Positions 14,623-40,291 of a DNA stretch of 52,156 nucleotides are shown here, piece by piece. Where the stretch lies: positions 1-52,156 of the forward strand of contig NZ_JAQGEI010000039.1 of the NCBI RefSeq assembly GCF_029017505.1, in the 5' to 3' direction. A program made the position numbers and the translations under genes. Source of the stretch: Sedimenticola hydrogenitrophicus (GTDB lineage: Bacteria; Pseudomonadota; Gammaproteobacteria; Chromatiales; Chromatiaceae). The notes under the pieces were generated by a model. That model saw only the letters and a list, made by a program, of their open reading frames with translations. It was not told the origin of the DNA and ran no database searches. Position 1 is the first letter of the stretch. Each line of letters starts with the position of its first letter.

Positions 14623-17310
14623 ATGATCAATCGTTCAAGCGAGTACCGGGATGTGGATCCCCAGGAGACCCTGGAGTGGATGGAGGCGATCGATGTGGTG
14701 CTGGAGCGGGAGGGCACGGAGCGTGCAAAATTCCTGATCAAGCGCACCATCGACAAGGCCACGGCGGCCGGGGTCGAGCCGCCGGACTGCTCCCGCACCC
14801 CCTATCTGAACTCGATTCCGGTCAGCCGTGAGCCGAAGCTGCCCGGCGACCCGGTCGTCGAGGCACGGCTGCGCGACATCATCCGCTGGAACGCCATGGC
14901 CATGGTGGTGCGGGCCAACCGCAAGCCGGCCGCCCCCGGCGGACACATCGCCAGCTTCCAGTCCTCGGCGGTGCTCTACGAGACCGGCTTCAACCACTTC
15001 TGGCGCGCCGCCAGCGACGTACACGGCGGTGACCTGATCTATTTCCAGGGCCATGCGGCACCGGGCATCTACGCCCGCGCCTTCCTGGAGGGACGCATCA
15101 GCGAGGAACAGCTGGACAACTTCCGTATGGAAACCGGCGGCAAGGGCCTCCCCTCCTACCCCCATCCCTGGCTGATGAAGAACTTCTGGCAGTTCCCCAC
15201 CGTCTCCATGGGCCTGGGGCCGATCATGGCGATCTACCAGGCGCGTTTCATGAAGTACCTGGAAAACCGCGGCCTGATCCCCAAATCCAACCGCAAGGTG
15301 TGGGTGTTCCTGGGTGACGGCGAGACCGACGAGCCGGAGGCGCAGGGCGCCATCGCCCTGGCGGTGCGCGAAAAGCTGGACAACCTGATCTTCGTCATCA
15401 ACTGCAACCTGCAGCGCCTGGACGGCCCGGTACGCGGCAACGGCAAGATCATCCAGGAGCTTGAGGGCAATTTCCGCGGCACCGGCTGGAACGTGATCAA
15501 GGTGATCTGGGGCGCCTCCTGGGACAAGCTGCTGGCCCAGGACCACAACGGCCTGCTGCGCAAGCGCATGGAAGAGTGCGTGGACGGCGAGTACCAGAGC
15601 TTCAAGGCGAAGGACGGGGCCTATGTGCGTGAATACTTCTTCGGCAAGTACCCCGAACTGAAGAAGATGGTGGAGCACATGAGCGACGATGAGATCTATC
15701 ACGATCTGATTCGTGGCGGCCATGATCCGCAGAAGGTGTTCGCCGCCTACTCCGAGGCGGTCAACACCGTCGGCCAGCCGACCCTGATCCTGGCCAAGAC
15801 GGTCAAGGGCTACGGCATGGGCGAGGCCGGCGAGGGCCAGAACATCTCCCACCAGCAGAAGAAGCTGGGCAACGACCAGCTGAAGAAATTCCGCGCCCGC
15901 CTGGAACTAGACATCTCCGAGGAGGATGTGCTGCAGGCCAACTTCCTGAAGCCGGCCGACGACAGCGCGGAGATGCAGTACCTGCACAGCCACCGCGAGC
16001 AACTGGGCGGCTACCTGCCGGCGCGCCGCACCCAGGGCGATATCCTGACCATCCCGCCACTCTCCATGTTCGACCTGCTGCTGAAGGGCACCGGTCAGCG
16101 CACTATGTCCACCACCATGGCGCTGGTGCGGGCCATGGTCGCCATCTCCCGCAACAAGGAGATCGGCCCGCGCCTGGTGCCGATCGTGCCAGACGAGGCA
16201 CGCACCTTCGGCATGGAGGGGATGTTCCGCCAGATGGGCATCTACGCCCCCGAAGGCCAGCTCTACACGCCCATGGATTCAGGCGACATCATGCCCTACC
16301 GCGAGGACAAGCAGGGCCAACTGCTGCAGGAGGGGATTAACGAGGCCGGCGCCATGTCCTCCTGGATCGCCGCCGCCAGCGCCTACAGCAGCCACGGCGT
16401 CACCATGATGCCGTTCTATATCTACTACTCCATGTTCGGCTTCCAGCGTATCGGCGACCTGGCCTGGGCCGCCGGCGACCTGCAGGCACGCGGCTTCCTG
16501 ATCGGCGGCACCGCCGGCCGCACCACCCTGAACGGCGAGGGCCTGCAGCACCAGGACGGCCACAGCCAGCTGTTTGCCAGCTTCATCCCCAACTGCATCT
16601 CCTACGACCCCACCTACCACTACGAGGTGGCGGTGATCGTGCACGAGGGCATGCGACGCATGTTCCAGGAGCAGGAGAGTGTCTTCTACTACCTGACCAC
16701 CATGAACGAGAACTACAGCCACCCCGATATGCCGGAGGGCGCCGAGGAGGGCATTCTCAAGGGCCTTTACCACCTGCAGAGCAGCGAGGTGGAGAAGAAG
16801 GGCAAGAAGAAGAACCCCCGCGTCCAGTTGCTGGGTTGCGGCACCATCCTCAACGAGGTGATCGCCGGCGCCGAACTGCTGAAGAACGACTTCAACATCG
16901 CCGCCGATATCTGGAGCGCCCCCAGCTTCAACGAGCTGTGCCGCGACGGCCAGGACGTGGAGCGCTGGAACCGCCTGCATCCCGAGCAGGCCCCGCGGGT
17001 CAGCCACGTGGAGGCGTGCCTGAAGGATCGCGAGGGTCCGGTGATCGCTGCCAGCGACTACATGAAGAACTTTGCCGAGCAGATCCGACCCTTCGTCCCG
17101 GCCGCCTACCACACCCTGGGCACCGACGGTTTCGGTCGTTCCGACAGCCGCGAGGGGTTGCGCCGCCACTTCGAGGTGGACCGCCACTATGTCGCCATCA
17201 CCGCCCTCAAGGCGCTGGCCGATGCAGGCACCATCCCGGTCAAGCTGGTCAGCCAGGCGATTGAGCAGTACGGCATCGACGCCGACAAGCCCAATCCGGT
17301 AAGCGTTTAA
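14623..17310 (+). CDS. aceE: Pyruvate dehydrogenase E1 component (homodimeric)
   Basis: Thiamine-diphosphate-dependent E1 that decarboxylates pyruvate and acetylates the lipoyl groups of the PDH complex. The 895 residues match the homodimeric AceE family. Visible landmarks are the ThDP motif GDGETDEPEAQGAI...NLIFVINCNLQ (around residues 232-265), the HxxGxxAPG-like FQGHAAPGIYARAFLEGR region, and the C-terminal transketolase-like part. The start has a good Shine-Dalgarno (AGAGGAAG) about 8 bases before the ATG. It is the first gene of aceE-aceF-lpdA-lipA. Confidence 0.98.
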   Translation: MINRSSEYRDVDPQETLEWMEAIDVVLEREGTERAKFLIKRTIDKATAAGVEPPDCSRTPYLNSIPVSREPKLPGDPVVEARLRDIIRWNAMAMVVRANRKPAAPGGHIASFQSSAVLYETGFNHFWRAASDVHGGDLIYFQGHAAPGIYARAFLEGRISEEQLDNFRMETGGKGLPSYPHPWLMKNFWQFPTVSMGLGPIMAIYQARFMKYLENRGLIPKSNRKVWVFLGDGETDEPEAQGAIALAVREKLDNLIFVINCNLQRLDGPVRGNGKIIQELEGNFRGTGWNVIKVIWGASWDKLLAQDHNGLLRKRMEECVDGEYQSFKAKDGAYVREYFFGKYPELKKMVEHMSDDEIYHDLIRGGHDPQKVFAAYSEAVNTVGQPTLILAKTVKGYGMGEAGEGQNISHQQKKLGNDQLKKFRARLELDISEEDVLQANFLKPADDSAEMQYLHSHREQLGGYLPARRTQGDILTIPPLSMFDLLLKGTGQRTMSTTMALVRAMVAISRNKEIGPRLVPIVPDEARTFGMEGMFRQMGIYAPEGQLYTPMDSGDIMPYREDKQGQLLQEGINEAGAMSSWIAAASAYSSHGVTMMPFYIYYSMFGFQRIGDLAWAAGDLQARGFLIGGTAGRTTLNGEGLQHQDGHSQLFASFIPNCISYDPTYHYEVAVIVHEGMRRMFQEQESVFYYLTTMNENYSHPDMPEGAEEGILKGLYHLQSSEVEKKGKKKNPRVQLLGCGTILNEVIAGAELLKNDFNIAADIWSAPSFNELCRDGQDVERWNRLHPEQAPRVSHVEACLKDREGPVIAASDYMKNFAEQIRPFVPAAYHTLGTDGFGRSDSREGLRRHFEVDRHYVAITALKALADAGTIPVKLVSQAIEQYGIDADKPNPVSV

Positions 17311-26376: not shown

Positions 26377-26994
26377 TCAGTGCCGCAGGCCGATATAGGC
26401 ACCGGCCGCCATCATGATGGAGCCGGCCACCCGATTGAGTCCGCGCATCGCCCGTTCGGAACGGAATTTCTGCCGCGCCCAGGAGGCGGTGACCGCAATC
26501 AGCATCAGGCCCAGCATGAGACCGACCAGGGTAATCACCGAAGCCAGGACGATATCCCCGGTTGTCAGCACGCTCAGATCCATGAAGGTGGGCAGAAAGG
26601 CGATATAGAACAGGATCACCTTGGGGTTGGAGGCCGAGATCAGGAAGCCCTGGATAAAACTCTTCACTTGATCGCTCGACTTCACCCCGGCCGCTTCGGT
26701 GGCCAGGCTCGGCCGGGTGCGCCACATACGCCAGCCGAGATAGAGCAGATAGGCAGCGCCCAGAACGCGGATCACCGTGAACAGGCCGCCCCAGTGTTCG
26801 GCGATGGCCGCCAGGCCGTAGCAGGCGAAGACCAGGTAAACAATATCGCTGACCGCCATCCCCAGGCCCAGGGTGAAACAGGCGGCCGCGCCTTCGGTCA
26901 TGGCCCGTGCCAGGATTGCGAACACCCCGGGACCCGGGGTGATGGAGAAGATGAAGATGGCCACGAAAAAGGCCAGAGCGCTTTCTGCAGACAT
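26377..26994 (-). CDS. LysE-family amino-acid/metabolite exporter, copy 1
   Basis: RhtB/LysE-type inner-membrane exporter of 205 residues with about six helices and the N-terminal SITPGPGVFAI motif of the family. Start set at MSAESALAFF, the start shared with copy 2 (32289-32906); upstream in-frame codons are leader. The two proteins differ at 9 of 205 positions, and the DNA similarity continues about 86 bases upstream of the start. Confidence 0.92.
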   Translation of the reverse strand: MSAESALAFFVAIFIFSITPGPGVFAILARAMTEGAAACFTLGLGMAVSDIVYLVFACYGLAAIAEHWGGLFTVIRVLGAAYLLYLGWRMWRTRPSLATEAAGVKSSDQVKSFIQGFLISASNPKVILFYIAFLPTFMDLSVLTTGDIVLASVITLVGLMLGLMLIAVTASWARQKFRSERAMRGLNRVAGSIMMAAGAYIGLRH

Positions 26995-27080
26995 GGGTAG
27001 GGCCCTTCGCACCAGTAACCGTATGCACGGGATCATAACCGATCGGCCCGGCCAAAACAGTCGCCAAGGAGACAATTTCA
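26377..27080. repeat. 704-bp direct repeat, copy 1
   Basis: The LysE gene plus 86 bases upstream recurs in the same orientation at 32289-32992 with no net length change. Similarity begins at the stop codon and ends at GACAATTTCA on both copies. The 5.2 kb between them contains the hydrolase/GlxA/sigma-54/carbonic-anhydrase segment. Confidence 0.9.
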
Positions 27081-27240
27081 ATCTCTTTCGTCCCCTGCAC
27101 CTTCCGTTGCATAGGTAACTTGAGGGGTCGGAGTCAAATGGCGGTCACGATTTTGCCTTAACCCTTACCCGACGGGGACTTCCATCCCGCAAGATGAGAC
27201 GAGCATTGCTCGGCGCGAAAAGATACTTACTAAGCTTCCT
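27081..27240. other. Left edge of acquired-looking segment
   Basis: No gene. Contains GGGGTCGGAGTCAAAT (27125-27140), a sequence type often seen at ends of REP-associated transposon remnants, then a short CG-rich stretch before the isochorismatase stop. I cannot identify the element, and the link to a mobile element is only a suspicion. Confidence 0.3.
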
Positions 27241-27729
27241 CTACGCTAGGCTACAGCGAGCACTCAAACCTTGCAGCGCCAGGTCACTAAGAGCCTGAGC
27301 AGGGGCTGCGCAGCCTTTGGCAATAATATGGACATTCATGCCATGCGCCTGCGGCGACAAGGCGGTGTGCGTCACGCAATGCTGGGTCATCATGCCGGTA
27401 AGGTAAATATCAGTAATGCCTGCGTCGCGCAGGATTTGCTCTAGATTGGTTTCAAAGAAACTGTCGGCTTGGTGTTTGAGTACTACAGGAGCATCACCCA
27501 GTGCGGCGACGATAGCCGGGTGTATTTTCATGCCCTCCGTGTCTGGAACAAACGCTGGAGCCTCTGGCGGATTGAGATGTTGTACGCCAACAACCATCCA
27601 GCCATCGCGTTTGGCTTGCTCAATCGCGTCCACTGCGCCCTTACATGCGTTTTCTGCATTTTCCAGTGTGAATGCGCCACCGGGGAAGTAATCATTCTGT
27701 ATATCGATAACGAGTAATGCGTTTTTCAT
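27241..27729 (-). CDS. Isochorismatase-family cysteine hydrolase
   Basis: Soluble hydrolase of the isochorismatase/nicotinamidase fold, 162 residues. The triad is visible: D9 (VIDIQNDYFPGG), K85 and C118 (MMTQHCVTHTAL), with the preceding non-proline position typical of non-nicotinamidase members. The C-terminus (GLSARCSLA) is shorter and less conserved than usual (family 175-190), so the 3' end may have been clipped at the left edge of the segment. Base composition is lower in GC than in flanking genes. It follows the metallo-beta-lactamase gene by about 65 bases and is likely cotranscribed. The substrate is unknown. Confidence 0.85.
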   Translation of the reverse strand: MKNALLVIDIQNDYFPGGAFTLENAENACKGAVDAIEQAKRDGWMVVGVQHLNPPEAPAFVPDTEGMKIHPAIVAALGDAPVVLKHQADSFFETNLEQILRDAGITDIYLTGMMTQHCVTHTALSPQAHGMNVHIIAKGCAAPAQALSDLALQGLSARCSLA

Positions 27730-27794
27730 CGCGCTTCTCCTTCAGTGAAGCTTGGTGATAAGACTGTCTGTAACGGTGAGGCAGCCTTGTGGAA

Positions 27795-28688
27795 TCAGAA
27801 CCTCATCACTTCACCGTCAGCCGGAACCATGACTCGGTTCTGGATGTCGTTTTCCTGCACGAAGCCTCCAAGTTCCTCACGGCTCAGAGCGGTGTGGTTG
27901 ATGGTATCCATGTGCACGGAGATGATGGTCGCATTTTGAGCAGCCTTATAGGCGCGGAGCGTATCTTCTTTACCCATGATAATAGAATCCTGAAAACCGA
28001 TTACACGGGCATCGCCGGTATTCAAAATGATCACATCCGGGTTGTAATTGTCGAGTGTTTGAGCAACCTCGCTGCGCCAGGTGGTATCGCCGGCGACATA
28101 GATGGTTTTCTGCCCAGGCGCCTCGAATACGACCCCCATGACGTTACCGAGAATATTCGCCAGTTCAGGTGACGAATACATAGAGCCCGTACCGTGTTGA
28201 CCACCCGCTTTGCTCAACTTAACGCCGCCAAATCCGGCACTCTTCTCCAGAATACGTACGTCGGTGAAACCCTGAGAACGGATCAGGCTGGCATCAGCTT
28301 CGTTTTGAGCAAACAGCGGAATATCTTTCGATAGCAGTTCCTGTGCCGCATCATCCCAGTGATCCAGGTGAGTGTGCGTCACAATAACGGCGTCAACACC
28401 CTCGATCACCGCTTGCGCCGATATCGGCAGGTCAATCATCGGGTTGCGCAATTCGCTGCGGTAGGTGCCCTCAAAACCGGGATAGGTGCCTTTTGGGGCC
28501 AGCATAGGGTCGACCAGAAAGGTGGTGTCCACGTAAACGACTTTTATCGTGGCATTGCGAATGTGTTGCACCTGTACCTGTTGAGTGTCAGCTTGCGCGC
28601 CCGGTGCCGAATGTGTTTGGGCAAAGGCATTGCCGGTAAACACGGTCAGGGCCACAGCCCATGAGTGGGTGATGGTTTTGATGTTCAA
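27795..28688 (-). CDS. Exported metallo-beta-lactamase-fold hydrolase (UlaG-like)
   Basis: Metal-dependent hydrolase with HTHLDHWD as metal motif 1, further His/Asp ligands (AGDTTW, VHMDTINH), and overall resemblance to the UlaG branch. The start is best placed at the TTG at 28688: it has AGGA 8 bases upstream and gives a clean signal peptide (LNIKTITHS... AFA-QTHS), 297 residues. Extending to 28880 or to the ATG at 28784 would add a charged N-terminus and run into the divergent regulator. Predicted periplasmic or secreted. The substrate is unknown. Confidence 0.83.
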   Translation of the reverse strand: MNIKTITHSWAVALTVFTGNAFAQTHSAPGAQADTQQVQVQHIRNATIKVVYVDTTFLVDPMLAPKGTYPGFEGTYRSELRNPMIDLPISAQAVIEGVDAVIVTHTHLDHWDDAAQELLSKDIPLFAQNEADASLIRSQGFTDVRILEKSAGFGGVKLSKAGGQHGTGSMYSSPELANILGNVMGVVFEAPGQKTIYVAGDTTWRSEVAQTLDNYNPDVIILNTGDARVIGFQDSIIMGKEDTLRAYKAAQNATIISVHMDTINHTALSREELGGFVQENDIQNRVMVPADGEVMRF

Positions 28689-28826
28689 GTTTCTGATCCT
28701 GCGTTGTTTAGTAACCGCATTGTCGGCGAGTCTAGCGAGCCGAGAAATTGACCTTAATGACAATATTCGAAAGAATTGGGCCATAATGTTATTCTTGTCC
28801 ACTTTGAATCTGGAAGACGCATTATC

Positions 28827-29780
28827 ATGTCCATGCCCATTGTCGGTCTCGTGCTCTATCCGCAGTTCAGCCTGTTCCATGTGGCTGTTCCTTACATGGT
28901 GTTCAACACCTTACCGGACAACCGGCTGTTTGATCTGAGAATCGTGTCGTCCGGAGGTGGGCCGCAGCAGGCTGAGCGGTCGATGACGATACAGCCCGAC
29001 GGCGGTCTGGAGTTGTTGGAAATGGCGAATATCGTGGTAGTGCCGGGCTGGCGTGAACTGGACGACACTCCAGAGCCTGACTTGGCAGAAGCGCTTGTCC
29101 GTGCGCACGCAAGGGGCGCACATGTGGTGGGGCTTTGTTACGGTGCCTATGCGCTGGCATATGCGGGACTGCTTGATGGTAAAAAAGCGGCTACCCATTG
29201 GATGGCCGAAAAGGATTTCAGCGCCCGTTTTCCCAAGGTAAAGCTGGACACCAATGCCCTCTATGTGGAAGAAGATCGCCTGATCACTTCCGCTGGCACA
29301 GGTGCTGGGCTGGACTGCTGCCTGTACATTGTGCGTGAGTATTACGGCGCGCAGATGGCCAACAAGATTGCCCGTGTCATGGTGATACCGCCCCACCGTG
29401 AGGGAGGACAGGCACAGTTTATTGAGCGACCCGTTGCCGTTTCCACGCAAGACGCCCACATCAACCGCCTGCTCGACTATCTACGCGAACATCTGGCCGA
29501 ACCACACACCATTGATGAACTCGCCGCGCGCACTGCCATGAGCCGTCGCACCTTTACGCGCCATTTCAATAAGGCAACCAGCATGACGGTGGTTGAATGG
29601 CTTGTAAACGAGCGTTTACAGCATAGCCTTGAGCTGTTGGAAACCACTTCCTTGTCGGTAGAAAGAATTGCGGAGATGGTAGGCTTCCAAACAGCAACGT
29701 CATTCAGGCAGCATTTCAGGCAACGTTATCAGGTCAGCCCTATTTCTTGGCGTAAGACATTTGGTAAGATTGAAAGTTGA
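28827..29780 (+). CDS. GlxA-family transcriptional regulator (DJ-1/PfpI + AraC)
   Basis: One-component regulator, about 317 residues. An N-terminal DJ-1/PfpI-like sensor domain (1-190) has the nucleophile-elbow cysteine in VGLCYGAYA, and a C-terminal AraC helix-turn-helix pair spans about 215-315 (AARTAMSRRTFTRHF; VGFQTATSFRQHFRQRYQVSP). Start at MSMPIVGLVLYP, with GGAAG 10 bases upstream; an earlier ATG at 28776 is possible. It is divergent from the metallo-beta-lactamase/isochorismatase pair, which it probably controls (inference). Its TGA abuts the stop of the convergent sigma-54 activator gene. Confidence 0.9.
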   Translation: MSMPIVGLVLYPQFSLFHVAVPYMVFNTLPDNRLFDLRIVSSGGGPQQAERSMTIQPDGGLELLEMANIVVVPGWRELDDTPEPDLAEALVRAHARGAHVVGLCYGAYALAYAGLLDGKKAATHWMAEKDFSARFPKVKLDTNALYVEEDRLITSAGTGAGLDCCLYIVREYYGAQMANKIARVMVIPPHREGGQAQFIERPVAVSTQDAHINRLLDYLREHLAEPHTIDELAARTAMSRRTFTRHFNKATSMTVVEWLVNERLQHSLELLETTSLSVERIAEMVGFQTATSFRQHFRQRYQVSPISWRKTFGKIES

Positions 29781-31373
29781 TCATGCGTCGACCTTGGCTT
29801 TCCGTCCGTTGTCGAATCCATGGTAATTGAGCTTCTGGTACACCGCCCGGGGGGTCATTCCCAACGCGTCCGCCACCGCTCCTACATCACCATTATTCCG
29901 GTCCAGATGCTCATGCAAAATACGACGCTCCACCTCGTCTGCAGCTTTCTTTTTCAGCTCCCGAAGGTCGATGGACGTGCCCACTTCGCGTGATGTCTGA
30001 GGCACTAGATCGAGATTGATGTGGCGAATGACATGACCGTCGGCGAACAAAAAGGTGCGTTCCAGTACATTCTCCAACTCGCGGATATTGCCAGGCCAGT
30101 GGTGCCCCTCCAGGATGCGCATAGCCTCGGGGGACACCTCCTTCACCGGTGACTGATACCGCTCGGAAAACCGCACCAGAAGCATCTTTACTAACGGCGC
30201 GATGTCCTCGCGCCGTTCGCGCAGGGGCATGATGTGCAGTGGCACTACGTTGATTCGGAAGAAGAGATCCCTTCGGAACTCGCCCTGTTCCACCAATTGA
30301 GAGAGATCACGGTTGCTTGCGGCGATCACGCGCACATCGCAAGCAACGGACCGATGCCCACCTACCCGCTCGAAACGTCCTTCCTGCAACACCCGAAGCA
30401 GCGACACTTGGGCCTTGGGCGACAGGCTGTCCACCTCATCCAGAAACAGGGTCCCACCATCGGCAAGTTCAAAGCGCCCCTGGCGCTGATGCTTGGCATC
30501 CGTAAATGCCCCCTGCTCGTGTCCAAAAAGTTCGCTCTCCACCAGCTCTGCTGGCAGACTGCCGCAGTTCACTGCCACAAACGGCATTTGCAGCCGGGAT
30601 GACATGCCGTGAATGGACTTGGCGAGTACCTCCTTACCCACGCCCGTCTCGCCGAGGAGCAGCACCGTCGCACGGGTGTCGGCAATCTTCTCCACCGCCT
30701 GCAGCAGGACTCGCATGGATGCGCTTTCCGCCACCAGCCGTGGACGTTCGGACACCGAGACTGGTTCATGACGGCCCGCGTCGTCAGTCCAGAGCGCATG
30801 CAGGCGCTCCTCAATGATCCGCTGCAACTCATCCGGGGCCCTCACCTCGGCAATGACCTGTTGACCGTCACTGAAATATTCATCCCCCAGCACTGATACA
30901 GCACTGGCCGGGTCCAAGTGAATACAGATATCGCAACTATCGCTGCCCAGGGCAATACGCCGCTGAAGCTCTACCTTGGCGTAACCGAAATTACGCGCGG
31001 CCACCCCGCCGAAAATACTCGATGTCATGTGACACAGACCGGGTGCCGAATGCACAAGGCTGCCGAAGGGACAGCGTTCAGCATGAATCTGCACCTGCCG
31101 ACGATTACTGGATACCACCTGAAACCTGCCGCCGATGCTGTTTTTCAGCAACACTATCAATTCGGCGTAGCAGTCCGGCGTCAGCGGCCCGGTCAGCGCC
31201 TCCACCGCACGGTATTTCTCTTCCCAACAGGCGCTGGACTTGAAGACGATCTGCTGAATAAAGGACTGCAGGCTGCTGCAACTGGCGAAGGGCGCGATGC
31301 GACTTGCCTCGTTAATAAAGGTCTGCAGGAACTCTTCCGGTGTGAGGTCGGCAAAGGCATCGGTTTTGGACAT
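29781..31373 (-). CDS. Sigma-54-dependent activator with Cys-containing N-terminal sensor domain
   Basis: Enhancer-binding protein, about 530 residues. The N-terminal region (1-175) contains [26 protein letters not shown] and [10 protein letters not shown], resembling the methanogen-output (MetOD1)/V4R group of ligand sensors. The AAA+ domain has Walker A GETGVGKE (about 241) and Walker [11 protein letters not shown]. The sigma-54-contact loop reads GAFTDA instead of GAFTGA (about 286). A Fis-type helix-turn-helix ([21 protein letters not shown]) ends the protein. Start at the second Met (31373), with GAGAG just upstream; 31397 is the alternative. It is divergent from the carbonic-anhydrase-like gene, which has a sigma-54 promoter. 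Confidence 0.92.
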
Positions 31374-31418
31374 GGTCACTCTCGTGTTCACGGACATTCT
31401 GAAAGGGTAGCAGTTCTT

Positions 31419-31454
31419 TGAAGACGCACTTCACAAAACTGAAGTCATACTTCA
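31419..31454. promoter_or_regulatory. Tandem upstream activator sites for the sigma-54 activator
   Basis: Two 15-bp inverted repeats, TGAAGACGCACTTCA (31419-31433) and TGAAGTCATACTTCA (31440-31454), with centres 21 bp apart, i.e. two helical turns. Relative to the expected start near 31532 they lie at about -106 and -85, the usual place for enhancer-binding-protein sites. They may also control the divergent activator gene. Confidence 0.8.
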
Positions 31455-31505
31455 CCACCCAACTGCATGCAGCGGCTAAGTCACTGATTTTGGTTCGCTG
31501 CACGC

Positions 31506-31521
31506 TGGCCTCTTAATTGCA
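31506..31521 (+). promoter_or_regulatory. Sigma-54 promoter of the carbonic-anhydrase-like gene
   Basis: TGGCCTCTTAATTGCA has the invariant GG and GC dinucleotides 10 bases apart and matches TGGC-N7-TTGCA of the -24/-12 consensus. The start site should be near 31532, about 50 bases before the ATG. Confidence 0.85.
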
Positions 31522-31581
31522 ACAATAAACGGGCCAGCCTTGTGTTGGACAACATAACCACAATATGACGAGGAGATATCA

Positions 31582-32160
31582 ATGTCCCAAGTAAAAGACG
31601 AGGTGCTTTCTGCCAACGCCCGTTACGCTGGAGATTTCGGTGACAAAGGGAGCCTTCCCATGCCGCCCGGTCGGCGCTTCGCCATCCTGACCTGCATGGA
31701 TGCGCGCCTGGACCCCGCCAAATTTGCCGGACTGGCGGAGGGCGATGCCCACGTGATCCGCAACGCGGGGGGACGCGCCAGCGATGACGCCATTCGCTCG
31801 CTGGTGATCTCGTACAAATTGTTGGGCACACGGGAGTGGTTCATCATTCACCACACCGACTGCGGCATGGAGACTTTCACCAACGAGATAATGACCGGCC
31901 TGCTCAACAGCAGCCTGGAGGCAGCCACCGTAGATGCCAATGGCTGGCACGACACGGGAACGGGCCCCGGCTCGCCGGAAGGTGGTTACATCAACTGGCT
32001 CACCATCTCGGACAATGCCAAGAGCGTGCTGGAGGATGTAACGCGTGTGCGCAAACATCCGCTGGTACCGCCTGAAATCCCCATCTACGGCTATCTCTAC
32101 GACTGCAAGTCCGGAAAACTGATCGAGGTACCGGAGGCTACTGCGGCTGGGGCGGCCTGA
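31582..32160 (+). CDS. Short beta-carbonic-anhydrase-like zinc protein, copy 1
   Basis: 192-residue protein of the beta-carbonic anhydrase fold. Zinc ligands C38, H91 and C94 and the catalytic dyad D40-R42 (CMDARLD, HHTDCGM) are all present. It belongs to the short bacterial clade that also includes COS hydrolase of Thiobacillus and CS2 hydrolases, so CO2 hydration is not the only option. GAGGAG precedes the ATG. It is driven by a sigma-54 promoter and followed by a strong terminator, so it is transcribed alone. A paralogue about 80% identical lies at 39710-40291. Confidence 0.9.
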
Positions 32161-32177
32161 ATCATATCCCAATCGGG

Positions 32178-32205
32178 AAAGGCCCCGCCTGTCGGGGCCT
32201 TTTTT
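32178..32205 (+). terminator. Rho-independent terminator after carbonic-anhydrase-like gene
   Basis: GGCCCCG-CCTGT-CGGGGCC followed by six T, 17 bases after the stop codon. Classic intrinsic terminator. Confidence 0.95.
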
Positions 32206-32217
32206 CTGCGCCGGCGT

Positions 32218-32243
32218 GTCGGATTGGAGTGCGCTAATCCGAC
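32218..32243. repeat. REP-like palindrome
   Basis: GTCGGATT...AATCCGAC, an 8-bp inverted repeat with a 10-base centre, directly after the terminator and before the second 704-bp repeat. It resembles common extragenic palindromes of gammaproteobacteria. Confidence 0.6.
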
Positions 32244-32288
32244 CTACGATCCTGATAGCTGAGTCAGGTGGTTAATCAGGTAACCCAG

Positions 32289-32906
32289 TCAGTGACGCAG
32301 GCCGATGTAGGCCCCGGCCGCCATCATGATGGAGCCGGCCACCCGATTGAGTCCGCGCATCGCCCGTTCGGAACGGAATTTCCTGCGTGCCCAGGAGGCG
32401 GTAACCGCGATCAACATCAGGCCCAGCATGAGACCGACCAGGGTGATCACCGAAGCCAAAATGATATCCCCGGTCGTCAGCACGCTCAGATCCATGAAGG
32501 TGGGCAAAAAGGCGATATAGAACAGGATCACCTTGGGGTTGGAGGCCGAGATGAGAAAGCCCTGGATGAAACTCCTGACCTGGTCGCTCGATTTCACCGC
32601 GTCCGCTTCCGTTGCCAGGCTTGGCCGTGTACGCCACATGCGCCAGCCGAGATAGAGCAGATAGGCCGCGCCCAGAACGCGGATCACCGTGAACAGGCCG
32701 CCCCAGTGTTCGGCGATGGCCGCCAGACCGTAGCAGGCGAAGACCAGGTAAATAATATCGCTGATCGCCATCCCCAGGCCCAGGGTGAAACAGGCGGTCG
32801 CGCCTTCGGTCATGGCCCGTGCCAGAATTGCGAACACCCCGGGGCCCGGGGTGATGGAGAAGATGAAGATGGCCGCAAAGAAGGCCAGGGCGCTTTCTGC
32901 CGACAT
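32289..32906 (-). CDS. LysE-family amino-acid/metabolite exporter, copy 2
   Basis: 205-residue LysE/RhtB exporter, 196 of 205 residues identical to the copy at 26377-26994. The nine changes are mostly conservative (V/I, K/R, A/T), so both copies look functional. No gene lies between it and the terminator of the carbonic-anhydrase-like gene; the two converge. Confidence 0.92.
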   Translation of the reverse strand: MSAESALAFFAAIFIFSITPGPGVFAILARAMTEGATACFTLGLGMAISDIIYLVFACYGLAAIAEHWGGLFTVIRVLGAAYLLYLGWRMWRTRPSLATEADAVKSSDQVRSFIQGFLISASNPKVILFYIAFLPTFMDLSVLTTGDIILASVITLVGLMLGLMLIAVTASWARRKFRSERAMRGLNRVAGSIMMAAGAYIGLRH

Positions 32907-32992
32907 GGGATTTGACCGTATGGATCAATGACGAATCTGGCAGATCATAACCGATCGGCGCGGCCAAGGCAGTCGCCAAGATGACAATTTCA
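32289..32992. repeat. 704-bp direct repeat, copy 2
   Basis: Partner of 26377-27080, same orientation and same length. The 86 bases before the start codon are retained but more diverged than the coding part. Confidence 0.9.
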
Positions 32993-33101
32993 GCGCCAGC
33001 CTGATCGGTTGCAGATGAAATTAACCCTTCGTGGTTCAAGTTATCTATTGCGCCGGAATCGGGTACCATGCGAAATCCGCCGATACCGAAGGGAATCCAC
33101 C

Positions 33102-39480: not shown

Positions 39481-39709
39481 AGGCGTAAATAGTTTCTATA
39501 CTGAAGCTTGTTGGTGATGTCTTTCCACACGCCTTTTCTATGGACTGGAAACAATACACTGATACCACGACGCACAGACCAACGGGAAGGGCCGAGGTGC
39601 CACTCATGGGAGATCGACAGGTTACGCACCCCGGTTGGTGGCTGGGTTCCTGAACTGCCGCATGGGGAATCCAGCCAGATCAGGATGCGGTAAAGCGGAG
39701 GAGATGACG

Positions 39710-40291
39710 ATGAGTAAGATTGTTGAAGAGGTGCTGTCAGCCAATGCTGCTTATGCGGACGACTTTGGTGACAAGGGCGCTCTGCCCATGCCTCCGGGGC
39801 GTCGCTTCGCCATACTGACCTGCATGGATGCCCGGCTGGATCCGGCCAAGTACGCGGGGCTCGCCGAGGGGGATGCCCATGTCATCCGCAACGCAGGGGG
39901 TCGAGCGAGTGATGACGCCATTCGTTCCCTGGTGATCTCCTACAAACTGCTCGGCACCCGGGAGTGGTTTGTCATCCACCATACCGACTGCGGCATGGAG
40001 ACGTTCACCAACGAGATCATGGGCGACCTGCTGGCGGGCAGCCTGCAGACCGCGAGCGTGGATGCCAGCGGGTGGCACGACAGCAACGCCGGTGGTGGCA
40101 CCAGCGACGGCAAGTACATCAACTGGCTGACCATCAGCGACAATGCGAAGAGTGTGGTGGAGGACGTGCTACGTATCCGCGGCAGTTCCATGGTGCCGTC
40201 GGATATTCCCATCTACGGCTATATCTATGATTGCAAAAGTGGAAAACTGGTGGAAATTCCTGAAGCAACAGCAGCCGGCAAGGCAAGCTAG
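39710..40291 (+). CDS. Short beta-carbonic-anhydrase-like zinc protein, copy 2
   Basis: 193-residue paralogue of the 31582 gene, about 80% identical, with the same zinc ligands (C38, H91, C94) and D40/R42 dyad. Divergence is concentrated at about residues 106-132, a surface segment, and at both ends. GGAGGAG lies 6 bases before the ATG at 39710; a second ATG at 39704 is too close to it. Unlike copy 1 I find no -24/-12 promoter or TGAAG palindromes upstream (39481-39709), so the two copies are likely controlled differently. Confidence 0.9.

Follow-up and report, generated by a model that had tools for sequence, protein, structure and literature searches.

The present work concerns a putative regulatory module of Sedimenticola hydrogenitrophicus that lies in a 52,156-bp stretch of contig NZ_JAQGEI010000039.1 (the whole stretch is hereafter called the window). 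The module is composed of two divergent genes and the region between them. One gene, on the reverse strand (29781–31397), encodes a sigma-54 enhancer-binding protein, and the other, on the forward strand (31582–32160), encodes a 192-aa clade D beta-carbonic-anhydrase-like enzyme. The forward strand upstream of the enzyme gene contains a distal operator palindrome TGAAGACGCACTTCA (31419–31433) and a proximal one TGAAGTCATACTTCA (31440–31454), both of the form TGAAG-N5-CTTCA and 21 bp apart, followed by a -24/-12 (sigma-54) promoter TGGCCTCTTAATTGCA (31506–31521) and a likely ribosome-binding site, GAGGAG (31570–31575). Downstream of the gene there is an intrinsic terminator on the same strand (32179–32205), with a 9-bp stem (32179–32201) and a T run; its fold over 55 nt has a z of -1.8, and an equally good fold was obtained in 10 of 200 shuffles. 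If the GC of the box is counted as -13/-12, the predicted start falls at about 31532 and the operator centres at about -106 and -85, where a previous sequence-only reading of this DNA had placed them. The parts listed in that reading (activator, box, two palindromes, 192-aa carbonic-anhydrase-like gene and terminator) are all present. Its left coordinate, 31373, is the second Met of the activator and likely the true start (530 aa), favoured by the starts of close relatives (MSK... in loci L076 and L077).

Taken by itself, the -24/-12 box is no evidence for a promoter. It matches 9 of the 12 positions of the general -24/-12 consensus; its GG at -24 and GC at -12 lie 10 bp apart and are kept in relatives. 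The pattern TGGCN8TGCA, however, occurs seven times in the window against 3.9 expected, and as many matches were found in 10 of 100 shuffles. The palindromes are much more specific. TGAAG-N5-CTTCA was observed three times in the window against 0.02 expected, and the exact tandem GAAG-N5-CTTC-N6..9-GAAG-N5-CTTC, without mismatches, is found in a single place in the whole 5.13-Mb genome. The third palindrome of the window is solitary and is located at 16880–16894. One match to rpoN was revealed in the genome.

The sensor domain of the activator is present in 17 of 194 genomes of the taxonomic family, including that of the window; it was found in none of the genus's 8 remaining genomes, of which two are 78% and 65% complete. 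Flanking regions were fetched for all 17 other matches in the family, and in 13 of them the activator has a different clade D enzyme as its neighbour, encoded on the same strand. These partner enzymes are 217 aa long where complete, are about 29–33% identical to the window enzyme and all contain the Phe-Phe motif NFFGT; the only one compared with solved structures (L054) was closest to the carbon disulfide (CS2) hydrolase 3ten, with an E value of 5e-48. We also scanned genome contigs with the sensor alignment and analyzed the best 80 of 211 relatives, hereafter the named loci, with flanks of up to 5 kb on each side. A clade D enzyme was found in the flanks of 65 of them: 52 CS2-hydrolase-like enzymes (Thiocapsa, Nitrosomonas, Nitrosospira, Sulfuricella and others), 12 carbonic anhydrases (CAs) of the window type and one carbonyl sulfide (COS) hydrolase. 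The 52 CS2-hydrolase-like partners are 28–33% identical to the window enzyme. The 12 CA-type partners, from a Gallionellaceae record, Methylococcaceae (among them Methylococcus capsulatus Texas and Methylobacter luteus) and others, are 71–89% identical to it, and the idea that the exchange of partner is peculiar to this genome was dropped on account of them. As a rule the two genes are close neighbours: in 61 of 66 loci, with the weak match of L140 counted in, the enzyme is within 1.5 kb of the activator match.

The COS hydrolase locus (L077) belongs to Thiobacillus thioparus DSM 505. Its enzyme, encoded about 3 kb from the activator, matches the COS hydrolase 3vqj of strain THI115 over the full length (E 1.3e-114), its activator is 74% identical to that of the window, and its COS hydrolase gene is preceded by the box TGGCACTTTGTTTGCT and a palindrome pair. 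The description of the window module as a self-contained sigma-54 module is supported, the same activator family, operator and promoter type recurring beside this gene and beside CS2-hydrolase-like genes. It should be mentioned that the OmpW gene of the T. thioparus locus (L077:4131–4775, reverse strand), divergent from the activator, has an operator pair and a -24/-12 box of its own, and that the OmpW-like gene of L079 is likewise preceded by both.

A search for the promoter and the TGAAG palindromes upstream of homologues, which the sequence-only reading had called for, was run with strict definitions. The operators had to be two GAAG-N5-CTTC sites 19–22 bp apart with at most 2 mismatches in 16 positions, and the box had to contain GG/GC, match at least 9 of 12 consensus positions and lie 20–180 bp beyond the operators. 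In total, 80 partner loci (the window, 13 family regions, locus L069 and the 65 named loci) were reduced to 66 by dropping 14 near-identical upstream regions; L059, with a fragment of a CS2-hydrolase-like gene only, and L140, with a weak distant match, were excluded, and 6 of the 66 upstream regions were shorter than 1100 bp. The strict architecture was found upstream of 45 of the 66 partner genes (37 of 52 CS2-hydrolase-like genes, 7 of 13 CA genes and the single COS hydrolase gene) and in none of 1320 dinucleotide shuffles. On this result and the excess of palindromes, a chance origin of the motifs was rejected. Among the family regions with a CS2-hydrolase-like partner, 11 of 13 contained it. 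A box matching at least 10 of 12 positions within 350 bp was found in 55 of the 66 partner loci versus 1.3% of mononucleotide shuffles.

In the 45 loci with the strict architecture, the operators are 20 bp apart in 37, 21 bp in five and 19 bp in three. The distances from operators to box fall into groups (52–54, 63–65, 111–119, 123–127, 136 and 147 bp), the first of which comprises the window and four members of its activator clade, loci L075, L076, L077 and L078. The architecture was absent upstream of all 29 close family homologues of the window enzyme that do not have the activator alongside; these controls are the tested part of 35 full-length family homologues with at least 74% identity. 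One gene, listed as both L005 and L069, entered the control set of 29 as well as the partner set of 66 and lacked the architecture in both. Only lone elements were revealed within 300 bp upstream of the controls: a TGGCN8TGC (L011), gapped palindromes (L008, L012) and an exact palindrome (L005). At the level of sequence, the switch is conserved along with the activator and not with the enzyme. The arrangement, previously described as not a standard one, is in fact common beside this activator family, though exceptional within the CA subfamily.

The enzyme itself has intact zinc-binding signatures (CMDAR at 38, HHTDCG at 90), matches Pro_CA (PF00484, E 1.6e-10) and belongs by fold, zinc residues and best matches to the clade D beta-carbonic anhydrases. 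Its closest solved relatives are 5ztp, 6jqc, 3las, 6jqd and 1ylk (Rv1284), followed by 3vqj and by 3ten, the CS2 hydrolase of Acidianus A1-3 from the same superfamily; 1ylk, 5ztp and 3las are here taken to be members of clade D. We know of no sigma-54 activator beside Rv1284 or the other CA-type relatives, although no search of those species was made. Passages of one paper assign the COS and CS2 hydrolases to clade D and describe CO2 hydration by those of Acidianus, Acidithiobacillus thiooxidans and T. thioparus as negligible or absent (PMC8209446), and an excerpt of another names the Phe-Phe motif as characteristic of CS2 hydrolase (PMC6382920). The CS2-hydrolase-like genes are the commonest clade D partners of the activator family and share the promoter and operators of the window, but their NFFGT is replaced by YKLLGT in the window enzyme. 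The latter was also placed outside the nine-row CS2 hydrolase group (100/100), and its identification as a CS2 hydrolase was rejected. It likewise did not group with the THI115 COS hydrolase, being about 38% identical to the T. thioparus L077 enzyme and forming a separate branch in a tree where long branches were flagged, even though both are clade D enzymes and the two loci share the operator pair and box.

A second CA gene of the window, at 39704–40291 on the forward strand, 8 kb away, encodes a resident paralogue 80% identical to the window enzyme, and no operator pair with a -24/-12 box was found within 1100 bp upstream of it. A third CA of this kind is represented in the same genome by a fragment near the edge of another contig (G000:C7:543–812; 66% over residues 57–146). 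The sequence-only reading had proposed to place both window paralogues in a tree with COS and CS2 hydrolases: they indeed fall into separate clades, and the window enzyme joins the CA-type members and neither type of hydrolase. In this tree, which has several open forks and long branches flagged by the program, the window enzyme groups with a homologue from a congener (G149) and with the activator-linked L075, L076 and L078 (94/93, slightly under the program's mark), and the paralogue clusters with those of other congeners. Since the activator-linked CA of L080 is located within the clade of the paralogue and the methanotroph CAs are set apart, the switch appears to have met CA genes more than once.

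The activator tree was built without the short matches L081 and L113. The clade of the window activator (100/100) has seven rows: five linked to CA genes, one to the T. thioparus COS hydrolase, and L079, in which the switch faces the OmpW-like gene. The partner label requires at least 15 changes over this tree, whereas shuffled labels required 27 on average. The switch thus stays in place, and what changes beside it is the type of clade D enzyme.

The module is located between two copies of a LysE-family gene, both on the reverse strand, at 26377–27081 (left edge) and 32289–32906 (right edge). The copies are 5.9 kb apart and 95.6% identical over 205 aa, and their DNA is 90.7% identical over 707 columns. 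GC content is 0.51–0.60 in bins 27000–32999 versus 0.58–0.69 in the flanks. Besides the module, the segment carries isochorismatase-like, MBL-fold-like and GlxA-type AraC genes, named by resemblance. Four congeners (G135, G003, G061 and G095) have an empty site, with EamA, a single LysE, MFS and malate synthase genes contiguous and none of the five insert genes at that site; in a fifth (G117) the contig stops beside LysE. Because the paired LysE genes bracket the segment and four congeners show the empty site, insertion accompanied by a 0.7-kb flanking duplication is the most likely way in which this genome acquired the module. In congener G149 (90% complete), the enzyme gene (L069/L005, on contig C168) is 94% identical and is preceded by one palindrome and a degenerate box TGGTCTCTTAATCGCA; the activator was found neither beside it nor elsewhere in that genome. 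This locus looks like decay of the switch following loss of the activator.

The activator is a member of the NtrC family of sigma-54 enhancer-binding proteins. It is composed of a sensor (about residues 20–210, matching MetOD1), an AAA+ domain (Sigma54_activat PF00158, E 3e-68) and a Fis-type helix-turn-helix (HTH_8 matched), with Walker A (GETGVGK at 249), the GAFTGA-type loop (GAFTDA at 296) and Walker B (FLDE at 318). GAFTDA, a G-to-D variant, is common to all seven members of the window activator clade and to L104; among 84 locus matches inspected, 73 have the usual GAFTGA. The same order of sensor, AAA+ and Fis-type domain is found in XylR, DmpR, MopR and PoxR, and in MopR and PoxR phenols are bound beside a zinc site. 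Unlike these regulators, the window activator has MetOD1 in place of XylR_N and V4R (neither Pfam model matched at E 0.001), GAFTDA and different neighbours, and it was not assigned to the XylR/DmpR V4R type. The predicted sensor model (pLDDT 80.7) shows a weak structural resemblance to the TRAPP/H-NOX/V4R group, in which the sensor domains of MopR and PoxR ranked 48th and 50th among the matches (E 0.03); by sequence the sensor domain gave nothing in PDB below E 0.09. Three cysteines (Cys109, Cys122 and Cys155) do not vary among 44 aligned sensors and may form a metal or reactive-thiol site. One of the alignments of the analysis was made without L129 and L149, which have a stop within the chosen stretch.

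The neighbourhoods of the activator relatives contain other genes as well. Loci L083 and L146 have a DUF938-type gene beside the activator, with the CA gene coming after it. SQR-like, DsrE-like and OmpW-like neighbours were found in L088, L093 and L149. MerC matches were revealed in 10 of the 80 named loci, for the most part in the interval separating the enzyme gene from that of the activator, and MerC-family membrane proteins lie near CS2-hydrolase-like genes at L061:2505–2924 (reverse strand) and L065:2966–3526. DUF938 was named through Pfam in L083 and OmpW in L077; several other names, including DUF938 in L146, are by resemblance. The window-type CA of a Methylococcaceae locus (L078:1846–2736, reverse strand) is extended in frame at its N-terminus; the added part includes a twin-arginine-like stretch, TRRDFLAASGA, which suggests export of the enzyme. 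Finally, the activator of L134, from a contig filed under a Bacteroidetes metagenome-assembled genome, is identical to that of Nitrosomonas L132, and its placement is probably a binning error.

We propose, with a probability of about 0.55, that the module is a horizontally acquired, self-contained switch in which an activator sensing a one-carbon (C1) sulfur compound drives a clade D enzyme, most likely a COS-hydrolysing one. A one-component sigma-54 activator would sense COS, CS2 or a close product through its V4R-like N-terminal domain, bind the two GAAG-N5-CTTC operators, which are separated by two helical turns, and thereby activate transcription by sigma-54 RNA polymerase from the -24/-12 promoter, with a single clade D beta-CA-like enzyme as the product. 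The enzyme would then most likely hydrolyse COS to CO2 and H2S, serving detoxification or the feeding of sulfide oxidation. The class of ligand is suggested indirectly, by the linkage of the switch to COS and CS2 hydrolase genes: the activator family, with its operators and promoter, accompanies CS2-hydrolase-like genes in 52 of the 80 named loci and the COS hydrolase gene in T. thioparus, which favours the earlier suggestion of a sulfur or one-carbon ligand over CO2. Several observations weigh against this proposal. The strict architecture is lacking in 21 of the 66 partner loci, including 6 of the 13 CA-type ones, although many of the 21 retain one operator site or a box; in six CA loci (L083, L090, L092, L108, L138, L146) the best box is 727–794 bp upstream of the CA gene, with the DUF938-type gene in between in L083 and L146. 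No clade D enzyme is present in the flanks of 14 of the 80 named loci, some of which are cut by contig ends, and a fifteenth, L140, holds only a weak match 3.3 kb away. In L123, L136, L144, L145 and L153 the promoter precedes a DUF938-like gene. The window activator has GAFTDA instead of GAFTGA. The best solved relatives of the window enzyme bear carbonic anhydrase names, and the enzyme, without the Phe-Phe motif, clusters with CA-type members. A thiocyanate hydrolase (NHase alpha), sought as a source of COS, was not found in the genome, but this carries no weight, as the control genomes were equally silent.

The last two points about the enzyme would be expected if it were an ordinary carbonic anhydrase, its activator sensing a sulfur gas and the enzyme supplying bicarbonate or buffering CO2/H2S chemistry while the cells grow on that sulfur compound. 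We regard this as unlikely: the active-site signature and the 80% identical switchless paralogue 8 kb off, which indicates that this enzyme type serves other needs too, fit such a role, but elsewhere the same switch drives a COS hydrolase or CS2-hydrolase-like gene, and the CA holds the same place in the circuit. About equally doubtful is an activator responding to another signal (sulfide or persulfide, copper, a thiol or an organic sulfur compound), with clade D enzymes being part of a wider stress regulon. In the five loci just listed, all without a clade D enzyme, the gene under the promoter is DUF938-like; behind it come SDR and DUF1326-type genes, joined in L153 by one for a PpoB2-type copper chaperone. 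The ligand may therefore be something else; as part of this wider regulon is not clade D, it could be sulfide or another stressor. The SQR-like, DsrE-like and OmpW-like neighbours, the MerC genes and the three invariant cysteines are consistent with this view, whereas a clade D enzyme accompanies the activator in 65 of 80 loci, other neighbours having been noted without a systematic count. That the box and palindromes arose by coincidence, some other promoter serving the gene, is hardly credible: the box pattern alone is not enriched, but the palindrome excess, the uniqueness of the exact pair and the retention of the architecture beside the same activator all argue against it.

As far as searches of an open library of papers go, the switch appears to be new. 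No paper in that library pairs 'carbonyl sulfide hydrolase' with 'sigma-54', and none among the matches listed, judged by title and the start of the abstract, describes such a switch. No regulator of a COS or CS2 hydrolase was found in the excerpts of PMC2621215, PMC10819757 and PMC6504805. According to excerpts of two papers, sigma-54 regulators occur in thiocyanate dehydrogenase clusters (PMC5744179, PMC6504805). These are similar in that sigma-54 control is found near C1-sulfur metabolism in sulfur oxidisers; they differ in enzyme and pathway and, in PMC5744179, by having a histidine kinase with a regulator.

COS and CS2 rank among the important sulfur gases, and the clade D beta-CAs are the enzymes known to hydrolyse them, but the enzymes acting on CO2 cannot be told from those acting on sulfur gases by sequence alone. 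A dedicated switch common to COS- and CS2-hydrolase-type genes and to these CAs offers an independent, testable marker of substrate, and its activator is a candidate COS/CS2 sensor for reporters. The switch also offers a possible reason for the presence of such genes in methanotrophs and nitrifiers. More tentatively, and somewhat below even odds, a hitherto undescribed C1-sulfur-gas regulon of sulfur oxidisers, methanotrophs and nitrifiers can be hypothesized. In it, a single activator family would act through paired GAAG-N5-CTTC operators on three kinds of clade D enzyme gene, those of CS2 hydrolases, of COS hydrolases and of the 192-aa type, and the enzymes would be swapped with the switch retained. 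If this regulon is real, no transcriptional sensor of COS/CS2 was known before this activator, and the clade D 'carbonic anhydrases' linked to the switch would act as COS hydrolases in vivo.

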